Below, in pieces: positions 173-61,785 of a DNA stretch of 64,000 bases (positions within the stretch are counted from its first letter, which is position 1; every line of letters starts with the position of its first letter). The notes below the pieces were generated by a model. It searched no databases. It was not told the origin of the DNA and saw only the letters and a list, made by a program, of their open reading frames with translations. The position numbers and the translations under genes were made by a program. The DNA is taken from the IMG/VR virus record IMGVR_UViG_3300025929_000015, positions 1-64,000 of that record; one strand, given 5' to 3'. The DNA comes from a virus.

Positions 173-816
173 GACTGCGCCACTACTACCACGTGTACGC
201 GGCCGGGGCGTGGGCGCTGCCGGTCCGGGAGCACATCGCCGCGCTGGGCCGGGCGGGCTTTCCCGGTGAGATGATCGTGGGCCTGACCGGGCCGGAGCAG
301 GACCGGGCGCGGGCGCGGGAGATGATCGTGCTGCGGATGCGCGGCTGGGACCTGCCCGAGCCGGCCGGCTGGGAGCAGGCTGACGATGGCTTCGAGCAGG
401 TCACCCTGGCCCGGCTGCGCGCCGACCTGCACCAGGGCACAGACGACGCCGCGGTGCTGTACGCGCACACCAAGGGCGCGCGGGATAACTCGGACTGGAA
501 CGCGGACTGGCGCCGGTCGATGACCCGGCACGTGGTGGGCCGCTGGCGCGAGTGCGTGCAGCTGCTGGCGTCCGGCTATGACACCGCGGGCTGCCACTGG
601 CTGACCCGCGAAGAGCACCATGACCCGCCGGACCGCGTCGTGACCGTCCCGTTTTACGGCGGGAACTTCTGGTGGGCGACCGCGCGGTACCTGCGCACGC
701 TGCCCGAACCGCTGACCGACTACCGGCACCGTGCCGAGGAATGGCTGGGGACGGGCAGTCCGAAAGCCTACGACCTGCTGCCCGGCTGGCCGGTCCCGGA
801 GCTGCTGAACCGGTGA
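169..816 (+). CDS. Glycosyltransferase-associated protein of unknown function
   Basis: Start GTG 169 overlaps the previous stop (GTGA), giving a protein of about 215 residues. It shows the pattern of a family found in surface-polysaccharide loci: an N-terminal HYYHVYAAG, a central YAHTKGA, and a later GGNFWWATARYLRTL. I do not know a biochemical activity for this family. It is translationally coupled to the flanking methyltransferase and glycosyltransferase, suggesting one sugar-modification unit acting on virion or host glycan. Confidence 0.6.
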   Translation: MRLRHYYHVYAAGAWALPVREHIAALGRAGFPGEMIVGLTGPEQDRARAREMIVLRMRGWDLPEPAGWEQADDGFEQVTLARLRADLHQGTDDAAVLYAHTKGARDNSDWNADWRRSMTRHVVGRWRECVQLLASGYDTAGCHWLTREEHHDPPDRVVTVPFYGGNFWWATARYLRTLPEPLTDYRHRAEEWLGTGSPKAYDLLPGWPVPELLNR

Positions 817-1475
817 AGGCGTTCGTGATCTTCCGTGACCGGGTGACCTACGGGCGGCGTTGCGTGGCGGCCATGTTCCGCTCGGGCCTGGACCCGGTCG
901 TGGTAGATCACGGGAGCACCTGGCCGGACGCGGTGGACTGGCTGGACTGCCTGGCCTGCGACGAAATCCCGGTGCTGTACCGCGGCGGGGGGCACCCGCG
1001 GGAGCTGTGGGCGTGGCCGCCGTTCACCGCCGCGCGCGGCGATGACCCGTTCCTCGTGACCGACCCGGACGTGATCCCGGCCGCGGGCTGCCCGCTGGAC
1101 TGGCCGCAGCACCTGCTGCGGCTGCTGGAGGAGTACCCGGGGATGGCCAAGGCGGCGCTGGGGCTGCGGATCGACAACCTGCCCGCGCACTACTCGCGGC
1201 GGGACCAGGTGACCGCCTGGGAGGCGCAGTTCTGGACGAACCAGATCGGCCCGGGGGTGTACGGTGCCCCGGTGGACACCACGCTGGCGCTGTACCGGCC
1301 CGGGTCGGGGTTCGTGATGGACGCGATCCGCACCGGCCCGCCGTACGTGGCCGATCACCTGGCCTGGCACGAGAACCTGGAACATCCCACCGAGGAGAGC
1401 GACTATTACTACCGGCACGCCGAGCCCGGGATCTCCCACTGGGCCGCCCGCGGGCACAGCGCCTGGGGAAACTGA
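813..1475 (+). CDS. Putative glycosyltransferase
   Basis: GTG 813 overlaps the upstream stop and gives a 220-residue protein. It begins with a Rossmann-like KAFVIFRDRVTYGRR strand, and carries VTDPDVIPA near residues 80-90, which resembles the DxD metal/nucleotide-sugar motif of GT-A folds. A late ESDYYYRHAEPGISHW resembles the acceptor-side region. Neighbours are methyltransferases and other sugar genes. Donor and acceptor are not predictable from the sequence. Confidence 0.6.
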   Translation: MKAFVIFRDRVTYGRRCVAAMFRSGLDPVVVDHGSTWPDAVDWLDCLACDEIPVLYRGGGHPRELWAWPPFTAARGDDPFLVTDPDVIPAAGCPLDWPQHLLRLLEEYPGMAKAALGLRIDNLPAHYSRRDQVTAWEAQFWTNQIGPGVYGAPVDTTLALYRPGSGFVMDAIRTGPPYVADHLAWHENLEHPTEESDYYYRHAEPGISHWAARGHSAWGN

Positions 1476-1560: not shown

Positions 1561-2022
1561 GTGCTGGAGCTGGGCGCCTGGTACGGGTTCTCCACCGTGG
1601 TGCTGGCCTCGGTCGCCGGCCGGGTCACCTCGGTGGACTGGCACCTGGGCGATGAGCACGCCGGCAGCACCGACACGTTCGCGATCTTCACCTCCTACCT
1701 GGAGCAGTACGCGGTGGCGGACCGGGTCGAGGTGATCCGGCAGCGGTTCGAGGACGCGCTGCCGGAGCTGGCCGCGCAGGGCCGCCGGTTCGGCGGCTGC
1801 TTCCTGGACGCGCACCACAGCGCCGAGTCGGTCAGCCGGGACCTGGGGCTGGCGCTGCCGCTGATCAGCCCGGGCGGGTTCATCGCGTTCCACGACTACG
1901 GGCGCGGCCCGGACAACGGCTTCCCCGGCTTCGGGGTCACCGAGGTCGCGGACCGGTTCGGGATCAGCGGCCGGACCGGGTTCCTGGCCTGGGGATACGT
2001 GACGGACAAGGTGGAGGGCTGA
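1561..2022 (+). CDS. Class I SAM-dependent methyltransferase
   Basis: Motif I VLELGAWYGFSTVVLA sits at the very N-terminus, followed by SVDWHLGD (motif II acidic residue), FLDAHHS and PGGFIAFHDYG, as in Methyltransf_24-like enzymes. The frame is open upstream and encodes the expected pre-motif helix (LILPAIPSAVTANEAEAL), but no in-frame ATG, GTG or TTG occurs between the preceding stop and GTG 1561. A CTG at 1483 is possible. The next gene's ATG overlaps the stop. Confidence 0.7.
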   Translation: MLELGAWYGFSTVVLASVAGRVTSVDWHLGDEHAGSTDTFAIFTSYLEQYAVADRVEVIRQRFEDALPELAAQGRRFGGCFLDAHHSAESVSRDLGLALPLISPGGFIAFHDYGRGPDNGFPGFGVTEVADRFGISGRTGFLAWGYVTDKVEG

Positions 2023-2462: not shown

Positions 2463-2620
2463 CGGAGCTGCCGGAGGAGGAAACCCGCGGCGGGGAGTCC
2501 CCGGGGGACTGGAAGATCGCCACAGTGATCTGGCAGGGCCCGGCGGTCACGCAGCACACCTGGACGCCCGGCTGCGACGGGCACCACCCGCCCGGCCCGT
2601 GCCCGGACGGGGACAGCTGA
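2459..2620 (+). CDS. Small hypothetical protein
   Basis: A 53-residue product starting at an ATGA overlap with the gene before and ending in a TGATG overlap with the gene after, so it is embedded in a tightly coupled operon. It has an acidic N-terminus and a Cys/His-containing tail (TPGCDGHHPPGPCPDG) that might bind a metal. No family recognised. Confidence 0.55.
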   Translation: MTELPEEETRGGESPGDWKIATVIWQGPAVTQHTWTPGCDGHHPPGPCPDGDS

Positions 2621-3162
2621 TGACCACCGCGGCCGTCACCCGGGTCCGCGACCTGCTGCTGACCGTCCGCCAGCTGGAGCGCAGCTGGCAGAAGCGGGCC
2701 GACACCGGCGACGACCGGTACACCCCGTGGATGCCAAGCGATGTGGCCCAGTACCTGGTGCTGCTGATCGAGGCGATGACCGAGGCGCCGGGCGACCGGT
2801 TCCTGGAGGTGGGCTGCGGGCCGGGCACCAAGATGCTGCTGGCACGGGAGCTGTTCGGGCTGGACGTGCACGGGTTCGACCGGGTCCCGGAGTACGTCGC
2901 CGCGGCCCGCGAGCGCGGCCTGGACGTCATCTTGCACGACGCGCTGGCCTACCCGGGGTACGGCACGGCCGACATCGTGTTCCTGAACCGGCCCTGCCGG
3001 GACGCGGTGCTGGAACGTGAGGTGGAGCGGACGGTGTGGGCGCGGATGCGGCGCGGCGCGGTCCTGATCACGATGAACACCGAGATGCTGCCGCCGGAGA
3101 ACCGGTGGCTGGTGGTCAGCGAGGACCTGGACGTCAAGAGGGGGGTCTGGCTGAAGCTGTGA
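2620..3162 (+). CDS. Class I SAM-dependent methyltransferase
   Basis: A 180-residue protein with the clear SAM-binding motif I FLEVGCGPGTKMLLA (residues about 64-78), the acidic motif VHGFDRVPEY and a motif near DALAYPGYGTADIVFLNRP. The N-terminal helices (LLLTVRQLERSWQKR, TPWMPSDVAQYLVLLIEAM) look like a substrate cap. It ends the GT/MTase operon. Whether it methylates sugar, nucleotide or protein cannot be told from the sequence. Confidence 0.75.
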   Translation: MTTAAVTRVRDLLLTVRQLERSWQKRADTGDDRYTPWMPSDVAQYLVLLIEAMTEAPGDRFLEVGCGPGTKMLLARELFGLDVHGFDRVPEYVAAARERGLDVILHDALAYPGYGTADIVFLNRPCRDAVLEREVERTVWARMRRGAVLITMNTEMLPPENRWLVVSEDLDVKRGVWLKL

Positions 3163-6228: not shown

Positions 6229-6780
6229 GTGACCGTGATCCTGAAGCGCTCGGGCGCCTTCATCGGCGGCCCGCCGCACACCGCCAGCCGCTGGGTCTCC
6301 GCGGCCGTGGCGGCGTCCGGGATCCCGGCCTGGAACGCGCCCGGTCACCAGTTCCCCGGCTGGGCAGACCCGGCCGCGACCTACATCCGGCACCCGGTCA
6401 GCTGGCTCGGCTCGATGTACCGCAACCCGGTCGCGCTGACCCCGGCGATGGGCTGGTACGTGGACCGCCCGCGCGGCCAGCCGGTGGAGCAGTGGGTGAC
6501 CGCGGTGCTGGCCGTACCGGGTTCGGTGGGCCGGTTCTTCCGGCAGTGGGCGCTGCCCGGCATCCGGGTGGCCCGGTTCGAGTCGCTGCGCGCTGACCTG
6601 CGCGCCCTGCTGGAAGGATTCGGGGAGCAGCTGAGCGCGCACGCCCGGACGGTGATCGACCGGCTGGCCCCGATCGGGGCCGGGCCGCCGGGGCCACCCT
6701 GGCCGGCCGGGCTGGCGGACGCGGTGTGCGCGGCCGAGGAAGAGTTCGTCGCGGAGTTCTACCCGGAGGGCGCCCCGTGA
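6229..6780 (+). CDS. Sulfotransferase-like protein
   Basis: GTG 6229 follows GAGGGAGGGG. The 183-residue protein starts with a loop FIGGPPHTASRWVSAAV, in the place of the PAPS 5'-phosphosulfate loop, and has YIRHPVSWLGSMYR, which matches the 3'-phosphate binding pattern RxPxxxxxS. It is small for a sulfotransferase and the P-loop is degenerate, so activity is uncertain. Its location among sugar enzymes and fibres suggests glycan decoration. Confidence 0.5.
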   Translation: MTVILKRSGAFIGGPPHTASRWVSAAVAASGIPAWNAPGHQFPGWADPAATYIRHPVSWLGSMYRNPVALTPAMGWYVDRPRGQPVEQWVTAVLAVPGSVGRFFRQWALPGIRVARFESLRADLRALLEGFGEQLSAHARTVIDRLAPIGAGPPGPPWPAGLADAVCAAEEEFVAEFYPEGAP

Positions 6781-8024
6781 CGACGTTCACGGTCACCGCG
6801 ACCGACACGGCCGCGACGCTGGCCACGTTCGCGGCCCTGAAAGTCTTCGTCGTCACCTCCGTGTCCGCGGCCGGCGGCAACTCGGCCGGGTTCGCCGGGG
6901 GCTGGGGCGTGACCAACGACGTCATCACCCCCGCGCAGGCCGGCTCGCTGCTGCTGTTCGGCCTGGCCCAGACCGCCGGCACCTGGTCTGCCTACACCAC
7001 CGACGCGAACAACACGCTCGTCGACAACGCGCAGTACGCCGCGACCGGGTACGGGTACGCGGACGGGTACTACTCGGGGCCGGGCGGCAGCGGGCTGACC
7101 GTGGGCGCCAGCGGCCCTGCCGTCTGGACCGCAAGCGGGGTCTACGAGCTGGTCCCGCACAACGGCGCACCGGCGATCGACGGCAGCACCCCCGCGGTGG
7201 CGGTCACCGACGCGACCACCGCGCCGGTCACCGCGTCGTTCACCCCGCCGTCCGGATCGGTGCTGTGCGCCGTCCTGATGGCCAACAGCACCGGCACGCC
7301 CGTCATCGCGATGTCCGACACCAGCGGGCTCGGCCTGACCTGGACCCAGCAGCTGCAGTTCAGCGCGTCCTACGAGGGCACGGTCACTATCATGACCGCG
7401 ACCATGCCCGGCGGCGGCACCGCGATCGCGCTGGCCAGCGCCGGGACGGGCACTGAGGCGATCGCCGTCCCCGCGGTGAAGTCCCCGCCGCTGCAGGTTT
7501 CCGGGTTCGGCACGTTCCCCGCGGTGGGAGCCTCGGATACGATCAACTTCGTCCAGGTGTCGGTCACCGAGTACCAGTCCAGCGTGGCGATGCCGGCCTG
7601 CTCGTTCGAGCTGTGGGACAACGGCATCACCCAGATCGGCACCACCCAGACCGGGACCCGGTCGCAGACCCCGGGCAACGTCAGCACGGCCCAGTTCCGG
7701 CCGACCTACGCCCAGCTGGCCACCCTTCAGGTCCGGGTGTACGGCAACGCGCCCAGCGGGACCGGCGACACCGAGAACGTCGACGCGGTCGGGCTGGTCG
7801 TCGACTACACCCCGGCGTCGGGAACCTTCATCGCGCTGGCCGGGTCGGCGACGGGCACCGATACGCTCGGCGGGACCTCGTCCCTGCAGGTGCTGACCAC
7901 CAGCTTGCCCAACGCGATCGAGGGGACGGCCTACTCGGCCGGCCTGACCGCCACCGGCGGGACGCCGCCGTACACCTGGACCATCGTCTCCGGGGCGCTG
8001 CCGCCCTGGGCCACCCTGACCTGA
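6777..8024 (+). CDS. Virion-type beta-sandwich protein ending inside an Ig-like domain
   Basis: GTG overlaps the upstream stop. Residues 1-235 are a beta-rich domain (VVTSVSAAGGNSAG, LLLFGLAQTAGTWS). Residues about 240-345 form a module (VSGFGTFPAVGASDTINFV, ACSFELWDNGI, LATLQVRVYG) found twice more in the minor tail protein at 29343. The C-terminus enters a He_PIG Ig domain (GGTPPYTWTIVSGALPPWAT) and stops halfway. The missing second half is the N-terminus of the next gene in the +1 frame. Confidence 0.65.
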   Translation: MTTFTVTATDTAATLATFAALKVFVVTSVSAAGGNSAGFAGGWGVTNDVITPAQAGSLLLFGLAQTAGTWSAYTTDANNTLVDNAQYAATGYGYADGYYSGPGGSGLTVGASGPAVWTASGVYELVPHNGAPAIDGSTPAVAVTDATTAPVTASFTPPSGSVLCAVLMANSTGTPVIAMSDTSGLGLTWTQQLQFSASYEGTVTIMTATMPGGGTAIALASAGTGTEAIAVPAVKSPPLQVSGFGTFPAVGASDTINFVQVSVTEYQSSVAMPACSFELWDNGITQIGTTQTGTRSQTPGNVSTAQFRPTYAQLATLQVRVYGNAPSGTGDTENVDAVGLVVDYTPASGTFIALAGSATGTDTLGGTSSLQVLTTSLPNAIEGTAYSAGLTATGGTPPYTWTIVSGALPPWATLT

Positions 8025-10118: not shown

Positions 10119-10188
10119 CCCGGGAGGGCGTAAGCCGCGACCTGGACCGCGACCCCCGGGAGGGCGGTAAGCCGTGACCTGGACCGCG
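10119..10188 (+). repeat. Imperfect tandem duplication spanning RBS and start of the next gene
   Basis: Two copies of a 33-34 base unit (CCCGGGAGGGCG..TAAGCC then ACCTGGACCGCG) lie at 10119-10151 and 10155-10188. Copy 2 carries the working GGGAGGG ribosome site and GTG start at 10174. In copy 1 the equivalent start reads GCG. The duplication therefore leaves one dead and one live translation-initiation region. Confidence 0.75.
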
Positions 10189-12642
10189 CCGGGAGCCTGG
10201 CTCTTCGCGAACAGCACGGGCCTGACCGTCTCCAACCAGGCGATCGGGAACCTGCTGCTGGTCGGGGTCACTAACACCAGCAATAACACGGTGTGGTGTA
10301 CCGGGCTGAGCGGCGGCGGCGCGACCTGGGTGCTGGTCGGCACCAAGTTCGCCGGGACCGCCATCGCGGATTACTTCACCTTGTTCGCCGGGACGGTGAC
10401 CGCGACCGGGGCCGGGACGGTCACCCCGTCCTGGTCGGGTACCACCCCGGCCGGTTACCACCTGGACGGGCACGAGTTCAGTTCCAGCGTCGGCGCGTGG
10501 TCCCTGGACGTGCAGGGGACCGTGGACGCGGTGACGGGGAGCTGGGCGAGCCTGACTCCGGGCAGCAACGGGGAGCTGTACTTCGGGTTCGAGGACAACC
10601 TCGGCTCGGCTGGCGCCGGGAGCACCTCCGGGTACGTCTACAGCGTCAATGCCTCCTCGGCCGGGCGGGCGTACAACCTGTCCTGCCCGTCGGGCGTGGC
10701 GACCTTCCCGACGTGGACCGACAGCACCGACACCCGCAGCGGCATCATGGTGCTGATGCGGGAGGTCACGCCCGCGCCCGCGGCGCTGGCCCCGCTGTAC
10801 AAGCCGCTGCCCCCCGGCTGGTTCCCCGGCGCCGACCAGGTGACCACCTCGCCTGGCGCGGTCCCGTTCGGCCAGGTTCCCGCGCCCGCGGATCCGAGCC
10901 AGGTCATCCTCCCGCCGAACTTCCCCGAAGCGACCGGGTTCCTGCCTCCGGCGCTGCCCCCCGGCTGGTTCCCCGGTGCCGACAAGGCCACCACGGAGCC
11001 GGGCGGCATCCCGTTCTACGCCCAGCCGCAACCCGCGGTCAGCCCGCCGCCGCAGCCGCCCGCCCCGGATAACAACGGGGAAGTCCAGTGGCTGCCGTGG
11101 CCGCCGAACTACTTCCCCGGCAGCCAGGCGGTCACCGTCGACCCGGGCGGCGTCCCGTTCTACTCCCAGCCGCAGCCGCTGCTGGCGCCGCCCCCGCCGC
11201 TGGCGCCGCCGTGCATCTCCGGCCTGGCCGGTAAGCCGGGGCCCGGCTGGTTCACCGACCAGTACGGGAACCCGAAGCTGTGGGTGTGCGCCCAGCCGTG
11301 GGGGCTGGTCACCAACGCCGGGCGGTACGCCGGGACCACCGGCGGCACCTGGCAGCAGGACATCGACCGTTTCATCGCGACCCGGGCTGCCCAGGGCTGC
11401 ACCGCGATCCTGGTCTACCCGATCCAGAACACCGACAACGGCGGCGTCTTCGACAACGGGAACACGTGGGATAACGTGCCGCCGTTCAACACCGGCCAGG
11501 ACCCGGCGTCGGGGCTGAACAACACGTACTGGACCCGGATCGACTACATGTTGACCAGCGCGCAGAACGCCGGCCTGGCGCAGGTGGTCAACATCGACCC
11601 GGTCTACAACACCGCCGTAGGCCGGTGCTTCAACGGCTGGACCCTCACCCAGTGGCAGCAGTGGGCCGCCGCGCTCGGCGCCCGGTACGGCGGGCGGCCG
11701 GGGCTGCACTGGTGCTTCGGCGAGGACGGCGTCCCGGGCGGTTTCGACAGCCAGTATGACGCCTTCCTGACCGGCCTGGCCAGCGCCGGCGACACCCACT
11801 ACCTGTCGGCCATGTGGGCCGGGGAGTACACCAGCCGGTACGAGACCGACAACAACGCGAACGCCGCCTGGGGCACCGCGCACAGCGCGTTCAACTTCGT
11901 CTACACCTACAACTGCGGCTACTTCTGCATCGAGTACGCCTACAACGAGATCAGCCACGGCGCCAGCGTCCTGCTGCCGGTGGTCTGGGGGAACGGCTGG
12001 TACTACGCCGGCAGCGGCCTGGTCTACAGCAGCGCAGCCGACCGCCCGTGGCGGCAGGAAATCTGGTGGTGCCTGGCCTCCGGGGCACGCGGGTTCTGCG
12101 CGGAAAGCCACGAGCGGCTGTGGTCCTCCAGCGCGCCGGGGTCGGCCGCCACCCAGTGGTCGTTCGTCAACGCCCTGCCGAACATCGTCAGCACGTACAG
12201 CTCCTGGACGCAGTGGTACAACCTGCTGCCCGACCTGTCCTCCGCGCTGGTCACCGCCGGGCGGGGCACCCGGGTGGGCGGGCTGGTCGCGGGCGGGTCC
12301 GGCACCCCGTACGAGCCCGCGTTCACCAACAGCTACGTGGCAGCCTCCAAGACCCCCGACGGCACCCTGGCCGTGTGCTACCTGCCGAACAGCACCACCA
12401 TCACAGTGAACACGGCGCTGCTGGCGGGCGGCTGGACCGCCTCGTGGATCGACCCGATCTCGGGCGCCGCGTCTTCGGCCGGGGCCGGGCCGACGTTCAA
12501 CTCCACCGCGAAGGGCACCAACAGCCAGGGCGACCCGGACTGGGCGCTGGTGTTCCAGGCGCCGCCGGTCCGCGGGGCGACCCGCGCCCGGCAGATGCCG
12601 TCCGCCGATTCCGCCACCTCCGGCATGGCGACATTCACCTAA
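10174..12642 (+). CDS. Large virion-type protein with apiosidase-like (DUF4038) glycosidase domain
   Basis: 822 residues. An N-terminal beta-domain (about 1-200) is followed by three proline-rich repeats (LPPGWFPGADQ, LPPGWFPGADK, WPPNYFPGSQ, each followed by PG..PF). The body from about 350 resembles DUF4038/apiosidase-like TIM barrels: DQYGNPKLWVCAQPWGLV, FIATRAAQGCTAILVYPIQN, then HWCFGEDGVPGG with a likely catalytic acid. A C-terminal domain has ASWIDPISGAASSA. There is no signal peptide. It likely removes side chains from plant-like or capsular glycans; substrate is inferred from the family only. Confidence 0.65.
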   Translation: MTWTAPGAWLFANSTGLTVSNQAIGNLLLVGVTNTSNNTVWCTGLSGGGATWVLVGTKFAGTAIADYFTLFAGTVTATGAGTVTPSWSGTTPAGYHLDGHEFSSSVGAWSLDVQGTVDAVTGSWASLTPGSNGELYFGFEDNLGSAGAGSTSGYVYSVNASSAGRAYNLSCPSGVATFPTWTDSTDTRSGIMVLMREVTPAPAALAPLYKPLPPGWFPGADQVTTSPGAVPFGQVPAPADPSQVILPPNFPEATGFLPPALPPGWFPGADKATTEPGGIPFYAQPQPAVSPPPQPPAPDNNGEVQWLPWPPNYFPGSQAVTVDPGGVPFYSQPQPLLAPPPPLAPPCISGLAGKPGPGWFTDQYGNPKLWVCAQPWGLVTNAGRYAGTTGGTWQQDIDRFIATRAAQGCTAILVYPIQNTDNGGVFDNGNTWDNVPPFNTGQDPASGLNNTYWTRIDYMLTSAQNAGLAQVVNIDPVYNTAVGRCFNGWTLTQWQQWAAALGARYGGRPGLHWCFGEDGVPGGFDSQYDAFLTGLASAGDTHYLSAMWAGEYTSRYETDNNANAAWGTAHSAFNFVYTYNCGYFCIEYAYNEISHGASVLLPVVWGNGWYYAGSGLVYSSAADRPWRQEIWWCLASGARGFCAESHERLWSSSAPGSAATQWSFVNALPNIVSTYSSWTQWYNLLPDLSSALVTAGRGTRVGGLVAGGSGTPYEPAFTNSYVAASKTPDGTLAVCYLPNSTTITVNTALLAGGWTASWIDPISGAASSAGAGPTFNSTAKGTNSQGDPDWALVFQAPPVRGATRARQMPSADSATSGMATFT

Positions 12643-12657
12643 CACGGAAGGCGCCTG

Positions 12658-13176
12658 ATGTCCGAATACCGAGCCGGTCCGCGCGCGACCAGCACCCCGT
12701 TCGCGCCGGTGGTCGTGGCGCTGGCGGCCGCGACGACCAAGACGGTGCTGCAGGTGAACATCCCGTCCGGCCAGGACATCCGGCTGCTCGGCTGGGGCGT
12801 GTCGTTCGACGGCGCTTCCGGCACTGCGATCCCGGTGATCTGCGAGCTGACCGAGGGCGACGTGGCCGCCTCGGTCGGCACGTCGCTGACCCCGGACCAG
12901 TGGGGGAACGCGATCGCGCCCGCCTCGGTGTGCATCGGCGGGGCGGCGCTGACCGGGTACAACTTCGGCACCGAGGGCACCATGACCGTGGTCCGTCAGC
13001 TGGACTGCCAGCACGTGCACCCGCAGTCGGGCTACGGCCTGTTCTGGGGGTCCGGGGCGGAGCACCAGCCCAAATGCGGGGCGGGCGGCGCGGCCCGGTT
13101 CCTGCGGATCCGGTGCACCGCCCCGGCCATCGTGAACGTTCTGCCCTGGATCATCTGGGCGGAGCCCAGCATCTGA
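12658..13176 (+). CDS. Putative virion structural protein
   Basis: 172 residues preceded by GGAAGG. Beta-rich (VVVALAAATTKTVLQVNI, RLLGWGVSFDGASGT) with four cysteines in the second half (VRQLDCQHVH, HQPKCGAG, LRIRCTAPA). It resembles hypothetical proteins of actinobacteriophage structural regions. Position between the apiosidase-like and the repeat protein suggests a fibre or decoration role. Confidence 0.5.
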   Translation: MSEYRAGPRATSTPFAPVVVALAAATTKTVLQVNIPSGQDIRLLGWGVSFDGASGTAIPVICELTEGDVAASVGTSLTPDQWGNAIAPASVCIGGAALTGYNFGTEGTMTVVRQLDCQHVHPQSGYGLFWGSGAEHQPKCGAGGAARFLRIRCTAPAIVNVLPWIIWAEPSI

Positions 13177-13205
13177 CGGCTACCGGGCGGGAGGCGTGGT
13201 GAGTC

Positions 13206-14597
13206 ATGCCGCTTCGCGGTAGCACGAACGTACGGATCGGCCGTCCGGCGCCGGATCAAGGTTCCGCGGCGGGCACCGCCCCCGCGGGGCTGGCCACCGG
13301 CACCGGCCTGGCCCAGCCCGCCGAAGCGCAGGGATCGTGGCTGGCCACCGGAACCGCGACCGCGCAGACCGCGGAAGCGCAAGGGTCGTGGCTGGCCACC
13401 GGCACCGGTACCGCACCGGCCGCGCAGGGGCAGGGCTCGTGGCTGGCCAGCGGCACCGCGACCGCGCAGACCGCGGAAGCGCAAGGGTCGTGGCTGGCCA
13501 CCGGCACCGGTACCGCCCAGCCCGCTACGGCCGGTGCCAGCGCCGGGCTGGCCAGTGCCACCGCGACCGCCCAGACCGCGCAGGGGCAGGGGTCCTGGCT
13601 GGCCACCGGCACCGGCGCCGCCCAGGCTCCGGTTGCCGGGCTCGGCGCCAGCGCCGGGCTGGCCAGCGGAACGGGCACGGCCCCGCAGGCCGGCGGGCAG
13701 AACGTCCAGGCCGCGACCGCGGCCGGGGCCGCACCGCAGCCGACGGTGCAGACGTCCGGGAACACCAACGCCCCGGCCGCCGTTGCCACCGGCACCGGTG
13801 CCGCACCGGCCGCGCAGGGGCAGGGCTCGTGGCTGGCCAGCGGAACGGGCACGGCACCGGCCGCGCAGGCGCAGGGCTCGTGGCTGGCGACCGGCACCGG
13901 CGCCGCCCAGCCCGCGCAGGGGCAGGGGTCGTGGCTGGCCAGGGGGACCGGTACCGCCCAGGCCCCGGTCGCGGCGCTCGGCGTCAGCGCCGGGCTCGCC
14001 ACCGGCACTGGCACTGCCCAGCCCGCCGGAGCGCAGGGGTCGTGGCTGGCCAGCGGCACCGGCGCTGCGCTGCAGCCGTCGATACAGACATCGGGGAACG
14101 CGAACGCCCCCGCCACCGTCGCCACCGGCATCGGCACCGCCCAGCCCGCGGTCGTGGCGCTCGGCGTCTCCGCCGGGCTGGCCAGCGGCACCGGCACCGC
14201 ACCGGCCGCGCGGGGACAGGGGTCCTGGCCGGCCACCGGCGCCGGAACGGTCACCCCGGCGGGCATGGCGCGGGCCCAGCTGGCGTCCGGCACCGGCACC
14301 GGGCAGGCCGTGGTGTTCTCCTGCACTGCACTGGCCGGCCTGGCCGCGGCCACTAGCACGGCCAGCCAGCCCAGCGGCCACCAGGCGCAGCTGGCCACCG
14401 CGATCGCCGCCGCGCTGCGCGCGACCGGGCTGGGCCAGGCCGCCGCGCTGGACTTCATGTCCGTCGCGACAACCGGAGTCCGCGGGTCCGCGCTGGTCTC
14501 GGTGACCTCCCTGAGTGACACCGCCGTCCCGGGGCGGCAGACGCAAAGCTCCGTGACGGTCGGCAAGCTTTCCGGCGCGGGCGTGACCGTGTCATGA
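13206..14597 (+). CDS. Highly repetitive Gly/Ala/Thr protein with GSWLATGTGTA repeats
   Basis: 463 residues built from roughly 20 tandem units of 16-18 residues, consensus AxGQGSWLATGTGTAxPA, with variant inserts (LGASAGLASGTG; TVQTSGNTNAPA twice). A non-repeat C-terminus of about 60 residues follows (AALDFMSVATTGVRGSALV). The periodic pattern suggests a beta-solenoid or extended fibre. The nucleotide repeats (GGGTCGTGGCTGGCC-type) are imperfect, so the array is old or under selection. The long opposite-strand frame here is a compositional shadow. Confidence 0.65.
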   Translation: MPLRGSTNVRIGRPAPDQGSAAGTAPAGLATGTGLAQPAEAQGSWLATGTATAQTAEAQGSWLATGTGTAPAAQGQGSWLASGTATAQTAEAQGSWLATGTGTAQPATAGASAGLASATATAQTAQGQGSWLATGTGAAQAPVAGLGASAGLASGTGTAPQAGGQNVQAATAAGAAPQPTVQTSGNTNAPAAVATGTGAAPAAQGQGSWLASGTGTAPAAQAQGSWLATGTGAAQPAQGQGSWLARGTGTAQAPVAALGVSAGLATGTGTAQPAGAQGSWLASGTGAALQPSIQTSGNANAPATVATGIGTAQPAVVALGVSAGLASGTGTAPAARGQGSWPATGAGTVTPAGMARAQLASGTGTGQAVVFSCTALAGLAAATSTASQPSGHQAQLATAIAAALRATGLGQAAALDFMSVATTGVRGSALVSVTSLSDTAVPGRQTQSSVTVGKLSGAGVTVS

Positions 14598-14628: not shown

Positions 14629-14970
14629 ATGGCCGTGACCCTGTACCACACCGGAACCGAGTACACCTCCAACTCGATCACCTTGCTGCGCGGCTCGGTC
14701 TCCGACATCACCTCGGTCGGCGTCTACCACAACGTCAACCCGGCCTACATCCCGCTGATCACCGATTTCGTCACGGTCACGCTCGCCGACGGGACCACCA
14801 TCCCGCCGGCCGCGCTGGCCATCCCCGGCGAGATCGACGTGGTGGCGCTGATCGGCCCCAAAGCCGGCGCGCAGCTGACCCTGGCGGCCGGGACCTACCA
14901 GCGGTGGGTGCTGATCCGGACCGCCGCGGAAGACATCATCCGGGCCGCCGACACCATCATCGTGCTATGA
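14629..14970 (+). CDS. Hypothetical structural-region protein
   Basis: 113 residues beginning MAVTLYHTGTEYTSNS. The middle (YIPLITDFVTVTLADGTTIP) and C-terminus (YQRWVLIRTAAEDIIRAAD) read like a small beta-sandwich found just upstream of head-tail connectors in actinobacteriophages. ATGA-coupled to the next gene and part of the connector operon. Confidence 0.55.
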   Translation: MAVTLYHTGTEYTSNSITLLRGSVSDITSVGVYHNVNPAYIPLITDFVTVTLADGTTIPPAALAIPGEIDVVALIGPKAGAQLTLAAGTYQRWVLIRTAAEDIIRAADTIIVL

Positions 14971-15200
14971 ACGCGCGCTGGGAAGACGGCTGGCTGAAGA
15001 TCCCCTACAGCGGCCCGGAGAACGCGGTCATCGAGATCGGGCTGGGCCGGGTGTACCGGGCCGCGTACCGCGACTGGGACGCCGCCGGCACCCGGGTGGT
15101 GCAGATCCAGATCCCCGCCGGGCAGGTCCCGGCCCAGGTCACCATCCGGGTGAACGGCCAGCCGTACGGCAGTTACCTGGTGATGAGGAGCGCGCCATGA
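14967..15200 (+). CDS. Small hypothetical protein of the connector operon
   Basis: 77 residues starting in an ATGA overlap and ending in an ATGA overlap with the connector gene. The sequence alternates beta-type segments (AVIEIGLGRVYRAAYRDW, QVTIRVNGQPYGSYLVM). No family recognised; location implies virion assembly. Confidence 0.5.
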   Translation: MNARWEDGWLKIPYSGPENAVIEIGLGRVYRAAYRDWDAAGTRVVQIQIPAGQVPAQVTIRVNGQPYGSYLVMRSAP

Positions 15201-60666: not shown

Positions 60667-61785
60667 TCAGATGGACGTACCGGCACCCCAGCTGGAGCTG
60701 CGCTTGCGCAGCATCCGGTACAGCGCGCGGATGTAAACGAACTGGCGGGCGACCGAGTAGAACAGGTCGGGGACGATCAGCAGCGTCGCCACGATGGCGA
60801 CGATCCCGGCCTTGCGCGCCTGCCAGGTCTGCTCGATGATGATGAACAGCAGGCACAGCGCGTACAGCTTCGCGTTCAGCGGGTTGATGCCCTGCCAGCC
60901 GAACAGCGCGAACGACCAGGACAGGTAGAACGCGGTCAGCGGCAGCGCCAGCATCCCCAGGTAGGTGGCGGACTGCCGGACGATCATCCCGCGCGTCTCG
61001 TGCCCCCACCCGTACCGGACCAGCTCGGCCAGCGTGCCGTGCTGCCAGCGCAGCCGCTGGCTCACCCAGTCCCGGACGGTCTCCATCACGTCGGTCAGCA
61101 CCCGGCAATTCCCCGGCGCCAGCACCGGGATCCGCAGCCGTTTCAGCGCCAAGGTCAGCTCGTAGTCCTCGACCAGGCTGTGCACGTCGTACACCTGGCC
61201 GTCCGGGCGGGTCGCGGCCACCGCCCACAGCACGCACACCCGCATCCCCCACCCGGTGCCGGACAGCACGTCGGCCCGCGGGCGGCGGTTCTGGTGCTGG
61301 GCGAACCGGGCGAACTCGGCCCGCTGCAGCGCGCCGAGCAGGCCGCCGCCGGGGCGGCCGTGGAACGTCGCGCCGACGCTGCCGTAGCCTTTCTCCAGCC
61401 ACCGGATCGTGTTGGCGATGAAGTCGGGGTCCGGCACGGAGTCCGCGTCGAACCCCATCACGATGTCGGTGTCATCCAGCCGGGGCAAGATGTGCGCCAG
61501 CCCGATGTTCAGGTTGCCGGCCTTGCGGTGCGGGTTGACCGCCGTCTGGGTGATGCTCACCCCGTACGGCGCGACCTCGGCTGCGATCCGGTTGGCCAGC
61601 TCGCGGTCGGCTGTGTTGTCGAGCAGGACATACAGCTCGTCCGGGGGCCTGGTCTGGCCGAGCACCGCCTCCACGGTCCGGCTGATCGTCCCGGTCTCGT
61701 TGTGGGTGGGGATCACGACGACCACCCGGTCGGCCGGGTCGGTCAGCAGCGGACCGAAATCCCTTCCTCGTCTTGAATGGTTCAA
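60667..61785 (-). CDS. Processive GT2 glycosyltransferase (cellulose-synthase-like)
   Basis: 372 residues from TTG 61785 (AAAGGAG six bases upstream). GT-A motifs: VVVVIPTHNE, GFDADS (D113/D115), SGTGWGMR, LVEDYELT (E206/D207) and QRLRW (243-247), the D,D,D,QxxRW set of processive synthases. Hydrophobic helices follow (YLGMLALPLTAFYLSWSFAL, LYALCLLFIIIEQTW, AGIVAIVATLLIVPDLFYS). It would make and extrude a beta-linked polysaccharide. It lacks a PilZ domain. In a phage this is exceptional. Heads the GH16 operon. Confidence 0.8.
   Translation of the reverse strand: MNHSRRGRDFGPLLTDPADRVVVVIPTHNETGTISRTVEAVLGQTRPPDELYVLLDNTADRELANRIAAEVAPYGVSITQTAVNPHRKAGNLNIGLAHILPRLDDTDIVMGFDADSVPDPDFIANTIRWLEKGYGSVGATFHGRPGGGLLGALQRAEFARFAQHQNRRPRADVLSGTGWGMRVCVLWAVAATRPDGQVYDVHSLVEDYELTLALKRLRIPVLAPGNCRVLTDVMETVRDWVSQRLRWQHGTLAELVRYGWGHETRGMIVRQSATYLGMLALPLTAFYLSWSFALFGWQGINPLNAKLYALCLLFIIIEQTWQARKAGIVAIVATLLIVPDLFYSVARQFVYIRALYRMLRKRSSSWGAGTSI

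Follow-up and report, generated by a model that had tools for sequence, protein, structure and literature searches.

The question raised by this locus is what kind of protein is built from short degenerate repeats in an uncultured tailed phage and where such a protein would act. The DNA that was analysed (the window) is a stretch of 64,000 nucleotides from the IMG/VR virus record IMGVR_UViG_3300025929_000015. An earlier note on this DNA had described about 20 repeats at 13206-14597 that form a whole protein of the virion region and had suggested an extended fibre, a beta-solenoid, or an ice- or glycan-binding surface. The features of the window that bear on the question are listed in Table 1.

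The repeat gene is a real gene. The sequence GGGAGG is located at 13189-13194, 11 nt 5' of its ATG. The mean codon log-likelihood of the annotated frame is 0.242 and that of the remaining five frames ranges from -0.97 to -0.05. The differences between relatives peak at codon position 3 in all four pairs compared (49/45/117 for L012 and L003). The annotated frame is taken as the coding frame because of this codon usage and the third-position excess of differences against relatives. The nine 17-residue units that were compared also differ most at position 3 (66/102/194).

The array of the 463-aa protein is far above chance. Its lag-17 self-identity is 0.309, compared with a mean of 0.138, an SD of 0.016, and a maximum of 0.195 when its residues were shuffled 10,000 times. 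The array is also detected by Tandem Repeats Finder. The coordinates given in the earlier note are exact, and the repeats, which it had counted approximately, are parsed into 20 units. The array covers residues 30-396, but the first 29 and the last 67 residues are non-repeat and the protein is therefore not repeats from end to end. The units have lengths of 17 (13 units), 18 (one unit), 20 (four units), and 24 residues (two units); the reported range of 16-18 residues fits the first two lengths but not the others. Position 1 of the unit is Ala in 20/20, positions 3 and 5 are Gly in 17/20 and 16/20, and positions 2, 4, and 6 are Thr or Ser in 18/20, 17/20, and 14/20. A core Thr is conserved in 17/20 units and the last residue is Leu in 16/20. 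The Trp residues, which had been called regularly spaced, are 17 residues apart within runs, but spacings of 35, 37, 61, and 78 also occur, and only 10/20 units have Trp before the last Leu/Pro. Six of the 367 residues of the array are charged, and the composition is of low complexity (Ala 0.26 and Gly 0.17). The two 24-residue units, which contain TVQTSGNTNAPA or IQTSGNANAPA, are 112 residues apart. A higher-order duplication had been suspected from these two blocks and is supported because each of them ends a matching 20-17-24 super-block of 61 residues, of which 41 are identical (DNA identity of 73%).

Table 1. Coordinates of the repeat gene, its parts, and the neighbouring genes in the window.
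Feature	Position	Strand	Evidence or remark
Glycan-island gene, unnamed family, similarity from residue 48	672..1475	+	53% identity to G001 and G003 insert genes
Methyltransferase-like gene, end of glycan island	1561..2022	+	phrog_2675 E 7.8e-9; 54-60% identity to G003 and G001 insert genes
Methyltransferase gene, end of glycan island	2599..3162	+	PF13649 E 2.3e-6; 60% identity to G001 and G003 insert genes
822-aa protein, apiosidase-like glycoside hydrolase with Collagen_bind_2	10174..12642	+	PF13204 E 1.8e-11; PF12904 E 7.8e-6
172-aa protein, unnamed family, directly 5' of repeat gene	12658..13176	+	No Pfam or PHROG match
Repeat protein gene	13206..14597	+	463 aa; ATG start; homologues in IMG/VR
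Array, 20 units (residues 30-396)	13293..14393	+	ATGTGTAQ core and variable-length loop; unit parse
Super-block 1 (units 20, 17, 24; residues 133-193)	13602..13784	+	41/61 residues identical to super-block 2
Super-block 2 (units 20, 17, 24; residues 245-305)	13938..14120	+	
Non-repeat C-terminal tail, 67 aa, putative anchor	14394..14594	+	
113-aa protein between repeat gene and adaptor	14629..14970	+	No family over cut-off (Pfam, PHROG, NCBIfam)
77-aa protein between repeat gene and adaptor	14967..15200	+	
Head-tail adaptor, extra N-terminal region of ~100 residues	15197..16135	+	phrog_442 E 5.7e-27

The repeat gene of the window is separated from the head-tail adaptor gene by two small genes. 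The adaptor (phrog_442) was used as an independent anchor for a survey of the locus. The adaptor alignment search of IMG/VR identified 64 loci, and 65 loci were considered when the window was included. The 25 loci with less than 2.4 kb of upstream sequence were dropped and the other 40 were grouped into 27 clusters. An ORF with a repeat z-score of at least 6 was found within 6 kb upstream of the adaptor in 24/27 clusters. The downstream control gave 4/22, as five of the 27 clusters have too little downstream sequence. The three clusters without a strong array are L031 (z 4.3), L037 (1.3), and L043 (1.8). In some clusters the array is 1-4 kb away from the adaptor and does not adjoin it, and L056 and L064, which count as two of the 27 clusters, have almost the same upstream DNA (0.996). 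This dereplicated count replaces an earlier count over 58 loci. A codon-filtered variant gave 17/27. The model of the codon filter was derived from the GC-rich window, and the filter was dropped from the final count because it rejected the long repeat frames of several phages (e.g., L011, L015, L020, L021, and L029). The unfiltered count scores the longest forward frame. For L048 and L053 this is probably not the true repeat frame but one that overlaps it in the same DNA; the codon-filtered run places the repeat of both in a frame that passes the filter. The description of the protein as belonging to the virion region agrees with its position near the head-tail adaptor, but the product itself is predicted from sequence.

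The extra N-terminal region of the window adaptor is encoded at window:15197-15510, and the matches of this adaptor to seven phage records start at query residues 86-139. The 172-aa protein has 52% identity to L007 6410-6904, a match assigned by coordinates to ORF 6242-6913 that is itself directly 5' of a repeat gene, and a similar protein was seen by eye in L012. By eye, L043, L051, L053, and L056 also encode a small protein like the 113-aa protein close to the adaptor. Two other genes of the locus were noted by eye. An HNH-type endonuclease-like gene is located between the repeat gene and the adaptor gene at L005:9282-9968 (same contig as L023:5291-5977) and is absent from L003, L004, L006, and L012. 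The adaptor ORF at L069:3721-4926 is seemingly interrupted in frame by an intein-like insert that ends in ...ASHNC.

The repeat protein of the window has no match in Pfam, PHROG, and NCBIfam, and no chain at E <= 1 among the PDB sequences. The tblastn search of the phage collection with the repeat protein gave no match, which is not evidence of absence because the program masks low-complexity sequence. The phage collection also gave no match by tblastn with the hydrolase, gp12658, and the L075 protein, or by blastn with 8 kb of the window, L041, and L028. No match to window 10300-12600 was found among plasmids by blastn, and no description of such a repeat family was found among the open-access papers listed. 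Two scans of IMG/VR identified relatives of the repeat protein in ten contigs, so the homologous proteins, the lack of which the earlier note would have counted against its reading, are present. The fragment in L002 is identical to the window protein over residues 220-463, and the remaining relatives have 38-59% identity over the best segment. The repeat gene is immediately 5' of the adaptor gene in L003, L004, L006, and L012. Long N-terminal regions are fused to the array in L004-L006 and are absent from L012 and the window.

The arrays at the adaptor locus were sorted by eye into the classes LATGTGTAQQPTVAIGVSAG, ATLSGAGSLSTAVTQLAP, LAESGAGTDALAVTAAVP, and GIPTATGTAPQPVVAEAV, and a Pro/Arg-rich class with a lag of 34-37 (L010, L011, and L020). 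The Pro/Arg-rich class looks unrelated to the other arrays, and the slot next to the adaptor may therefore hold non-homologous repeat proteins. The adaptor-proximal proteins range from 80 aa (L038) to 1940 codons or more (L036), a lower bound since the L036 frame has no stop codon before the retrieved sequence ends. The 80-aa protein of L038 lacks the repeats and retains the Val-Thr rich tail at the same locus. A C-terminal segment rich in Val-Thr/Ser was seen by eye in many adaptor-proximal proteins. A second tail type, also identified by eye, is found in L051, L056, and L058, each with a gp14629-like small gene downstream. The curated Ca-binding repeat model (NCBIfam Ca_rpt_SMc04171) does not match the window protein, which has 0 NCBIfam matches; only the L051 class scores, at 71.7 bits against a cut-off of 625 bits. 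The repeat family is fast-changing, and its repeat class, repeat number, and fused domains vary widely. None of the curated libraries searched (Pfam, PHROGs, and NCBIfam) has an entry that matches the window protein, yet similar proteins recur beside a single gene across a group of uncultured phages.

Two pairs of contigs illustrate how the locus may change. The 3.3 kb upstream of the adaptor align between L027 and L028 with a rounded identity of 1.000, except for a single 162-bp gap in the array that corresponds to three 54-bp units; the two copies of the gene differ in at least one more base. A comparison of repeat number, as the earlier note had proposed, thus gives a difference of 3 x 54 bp between near-identical contigs, but this difference could be an assembly collapse. 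The adaptors of L045 and L049 are 99% identical and their upstream DNA is only 76% identical, a pattern that suggests exchange of the module next to the adaptor.

Some of the repeat arrays are linked to carbohydrate enzymes. The 822-aa protein of the window, whose gene is separate and two genes upstream of the repeat gene, consists of an N-terminal region, Pro-rich linkers, the hydrolase domain, and Collagen_bind_2, and both of its Pfam matches are over the cut-off. The apiosidase domain was found in 5/13 long records searched and the other 8/13 are without it. In G006, G009, G011, and G012 the apiosidase is in the same open frame (1200-1788 aa) as the repeat array. The fusion was assigned in G006, G009, and G012 from domain coordinates that fall inside the array-bearing ORF, and the frame of G011 was read directly. 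This 1397-aa frame of G011 shows by eye an N-terminal region like that of the window hydrolase, an enzyme region, and repeats. Because domain and array share a frame in these four records, the window splits into two genes what is one chain there. An esterase-like domain is fused to a short array in L056; its Pfam match (E 2.6e-4) falls slightly short of the curated cut-off. An array fused to or located beside an enzyme or binding module is thus found both in the window, with a separate gene, and in the four fused records. The link to glycans that the earlier note had raised gains indirect support from the adjacent or fused hydrolase and the nearby glycosyltransferase island.

The major capsid gene (PF05065) was identified in 10/13 long records and not in the record of the window, which appears to be cut off at its left end. 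No obvious capsid gene was seen by eye among the ORFs at 80-99 kb of that record. The capsid protein of Jflix2 as query matched 0/13 long records, an uninformative result, and phrog_2 matched 0/13 long records against 13/14 control genomes and was a poor choice of model. The distance between capsid and adaptor genes is 19.3-43.1 kb in nine of the ten capsid-bearing records; G008, in which the two genes are far apart across the record ends, was omitted. The nine colinear records represent eight clusters since G002 and G003 are near copies. The repeat locus is located at the adaptor end of this 19-43 kb insert. A GT2 domain and a conserved GT4-like gene are inside the capsid-adaptor interval in 9/9 records (8 clusters), and GT17 in 4/9 records. 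The insert of G003 also carries an epimerase/GDP-mannose-dehydratase-like gene, a C-methyltransferase, a radical SAM protein, and further methyltransferases. The first 3 kb of the window match the end of this island (gp672, gp1561, and gp2599, 53-60% identity). GT2 domains are also found outside the insert in some records.

Several other features of these phages were observed. The conserved GT4-like gene has one in-frame TAG at G010:C1:164355-165353, and at G006:C1:79209-81350 it matches in two pieces within a 735-aa frame, as if it carried an in-frame insert. A second glycosyltransferase of the window (61225-61719, minus strand, GT2 domain E 1.6e-19, 397-aa frame) is far from the structural region. 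A 123-bp tandem repeat of 2.1 copies (window:26698-26961) is part of the 2058-aa gene, identified by its size and place as the tape measure gene, and two further tandem arrays with periods of 348 and 69 bp (window:30011-30916) are in the 1563-aa protein downstream of it. A protein that resembles the DNA-end-binding protein Ku by eye is encoded at L083:5119-5952 (positions 85119-85952 of the window record, minus strand, outside the window).

The structures of the window protein and of L012 were predicted using AlphaFold2 from eight and nine aligned sequences, respectively. The model of the window protein has a mean pLDDT of 51 and all-beta repeats; its pLDDT, taken in 10-residue blocks, is 60-73 over residues 21-140, and almost every residue beyond 327 has a value below 50. 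The model of the L012 query has a mean pLDDT of 55, reaches 64-77 over residues 21-110, and likewise falls below 50 in its C-terminal part. The remaining four models of each prediction were poorer, with minima of 36 (window protein) and 28 (L012). Both models are all-beta and exhibit two strands per unit, one longer and one short, in the better-modelled N-terminal part. The protein hence combines 20 tandem short units with a regular strand-turn pattern in those that are better modelled.

No match at E <= 0.001 was found by Foldseek for either model, and the best rows of the viral library (E from 0.008) are uncharacterised phage proteins. The weak candidates of Foldseek were re-aligned by VIA-align. 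Its rows contain solenoid-type chains in 8/8 cases for the window protein and in most of 20 for L012, and the PDB entries aligned are what we take to be solenoid-type folds. The best alignments of L012 are to CsgA curli (Z 23.0, rmsd 8.3, 301 aligned), RsaA (Z 13.8, rmsd 5.0, 279), and the tail fibre of phage 7-7-1 (Z 8.0, rmsd 4.3, 206). Those of the window protein are to CsgA (Z 13.1, rmsd 12.1, 279), RsaA (Z 10.9, rmsd 5.3, 251), the Pam1 tailspike (Z 10.7, rmsd 9.5, 295), and HxuA (Z 10.5, rmsd 3.1, 147). The CsgA alignments have the top Z despite an rmsd of 8-12. A beta-solenoid fold of the repeat protein is likely from these models. The extended fibre or beta-solenoid of the earlier note is the likeliest of its readings on the strength of the all-beta models, but the mean pLDDT values are low and Foldseek found nothing at its threshold.

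The explanation that we favour, and hold to be slightly on the probable side, is that the repeat protein forms a beta-solenoid stalk or fibre on the virion, close to the head or neck, with an adjustable length and holding carbohydrate-active modules. Each unit of 17-24 residues would form one solenoid turn, in which the xLATGTGT stretch makes up the longer strand and a short strand leads back. Stacked on each other, the turns would give a thin and almost uncharged rod, with the number of units setting its length. The C-terminal tail would anchor the rod near the head-tail junction, a location suggested by gene order, and the rod would present carbohydrate-active or carbohydrate-binding modules, either in the same chain as in the relatives or encoded separately just upstream as in the window. 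Gain, loss, and exchange of units or modules would retune reach and specificity. The gene, its repeats and homologues, the recurring position, the fusions of arrays to hydrolases, and the unit-sized length difference are observed; the fold, the presence of the protein in the virion, its place at the head or neck, its anchoring by the tail, a function in reaching or processing surface sugars, and a glycosylation of the stalk are inferred. A stronger version, which we consider rather unlikely, has length-adjustable beta-solenoid spikes at the head-neck junction that are tipped with or bound to glycoside hydrolases and coated with glycans from the sugar island that the phage encodes in the 19-43 kb insert of its morphogenesis operon, with unit gain and loss and the swapping of whole arrays acting as a surface-variation system. 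Tailed phages are not known to carry their main adhesion device at the head-neck junction.

The same array could instead serve as a glycan carrier, in which the Thr/Ser-rich repeats are the acceptor for phage glycosyltransferases and form a mucin-like coat that hides the virion or binds lectin-like host surfaces; the rod would then be a scaffold for sugars and not a device for reach. The GT2 and GT4-like genes in all nine capsid-adaptor intervals (eight clusters), GT17 in four of them, the epimerase/GDP-mannose-dehydratase-like gene and C-methyltransferase of G003, and an array of 22% Ser+Thr with Thr on alternate positions are consistent with this explanation. However, the Ser+Thr content of the array (0.22) is not above that of its five upstream neighbours (0.20-0.24), although it is above that of the adaptor (0.14) and the tape measure (0.13); apart from the five neighbours, the seven proteins in the comparison have 0.08-0.21. 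The repeat classes of L010 and L011 have only 13%. The mycobacteriophage Thibault has glycosyltransferases but no annotated long repeat protein, and the acceptor may therefore be the capsid or another protein. GT2 is also found outside the insert (e.g., window 61225-61719). No GT4-like match was obtained in G011 or in the record of the window, although both may be cut off at the capsid end because neither shows a capsid gene. We regard the glycan carrier as unlikely on this evidence. A spacer of Ala/Gly/Thr/Pro without a fixed fold, acting as a flexible tether between modules like the Pro/Thr linkers, would account for the low pLDDT (above all towards the C-terminus), the low-complexity composition (Ala 0.26 and Gly 0.17), and the much change that is tolerated in unit length and sequence. 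The strict alternation and strong conservation of the core exceed what a tether needs and the models have regular predicted strands, which makes such a spacer quite unlikely.

The rod could also be a trimeric fibre shaft, as a triple beta-spiral or similar, and not a single-chain solenoid. Trimeric fibre shafts have short repeats with Gly turns, as does this array, and modelling of a single chain cannot reveal a trimer. The monomer models align best to solenoids, which is a weak point against a trimer, and the window protein has no sequence match in the PDB to the adenovirus-type triple beta-spiral; we consider the trimeric shaft improbable. An ice-binding or general hydration surface formed by a Thr ladder was also considered, since most units carry Thr-Gly-Thr-Gly-Thr on alternate positions and a Thr ladder of this kind is found in some insect antifreeze proteins. 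Other arrays at the locus carry SGAGS, ESGAGTD, or VKPLQGPV instead, and the Thr ladder is therefore not the conserved feature. The ice-binding surface of the earlier note is thus not upheld, as the flat Thr ladder is absent from other repeat classes at the locus, and we rate it as extremely improbable. If the proteins are virion stalks as we favour, they would link repeat-number evolution, virion carbohydrate-active enzymes, and phage-made glycans, which are usually studied separately, and an adhesion or glycan module would be located between the capsid and neck genes and not after the tape measure.

The solenoid rods CsgA (8c50), RsaA (6p5t and 5n8p), the tail fibre of phage 7-7-1 (9rkv), and the Pam1 tailspike (7eea) resemble the window models in their short-period beta repeats, although their gene context differs from that of the window and the likeness is drawn from low-confidence models. 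No sequence homology of the window protein to curli CsgA or to a curli model was found in Pfam, NCBIfam, or the PDB sequences. The adaptor is homologous to those of the Rhodococcus phages REQ1, Jflix2, Madraxi, and Shagrat (29-31% identity over 55-69% of the query), and REQ1, Jflix2, and Shagrat are placed in Cluster CF (PMC13313380). The capsid gene is less than 0.6 kb from the adaptor in REQ1, Jflix2, and Madraxi, which are without a large insert. Two scans of the genome collection with the adaptor alignments found no relative. An actinobacterial host is our guess for the window phage because of a GC content near 0.7 and the Rhodococcus-phage adaptors.

Omega-type (Cluster J) mycobacteriophages are described as having 8-10 genes inserted between the major capsid and head-tail connector genes, including several glycosyltransferases and methyltransferases (PMC3706429). 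The Thibault record (JN201525) has four annotated glycosyltransferases between the capsid and adaptor genes. The likeness to the Omega-type phages and Thibault lies in glycosyltransferases and methyltransferases between capsid and connector genes, but the Thibault insert is 6.3 kb against 19-43 kb in the relatives of the window, and its annotated genes are all below 280 aa with no annotated long repeat or hydrolase protein. The Pontimonas phage phiPsal1 has two glycosyltransferases and one methyltransferase between its capsid and connector genes. Phage-encoded glycosyltransferases have been linked to virion glycans in the mycobacteriophages Che8 and Rita; the glycan acceptor named in the passages concerned is the major capsid protein, and a repeat stalk is not mentioned there (PMC11256854). 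The capsid-adaptor sugar island is of a known kind, because a smaller insert is found in the Omega-type mycobacteriophages and genes of this type occur at that place in phiPsal1; the novelty lies in the long repeat proteins located where the island adjoins the adaptor.
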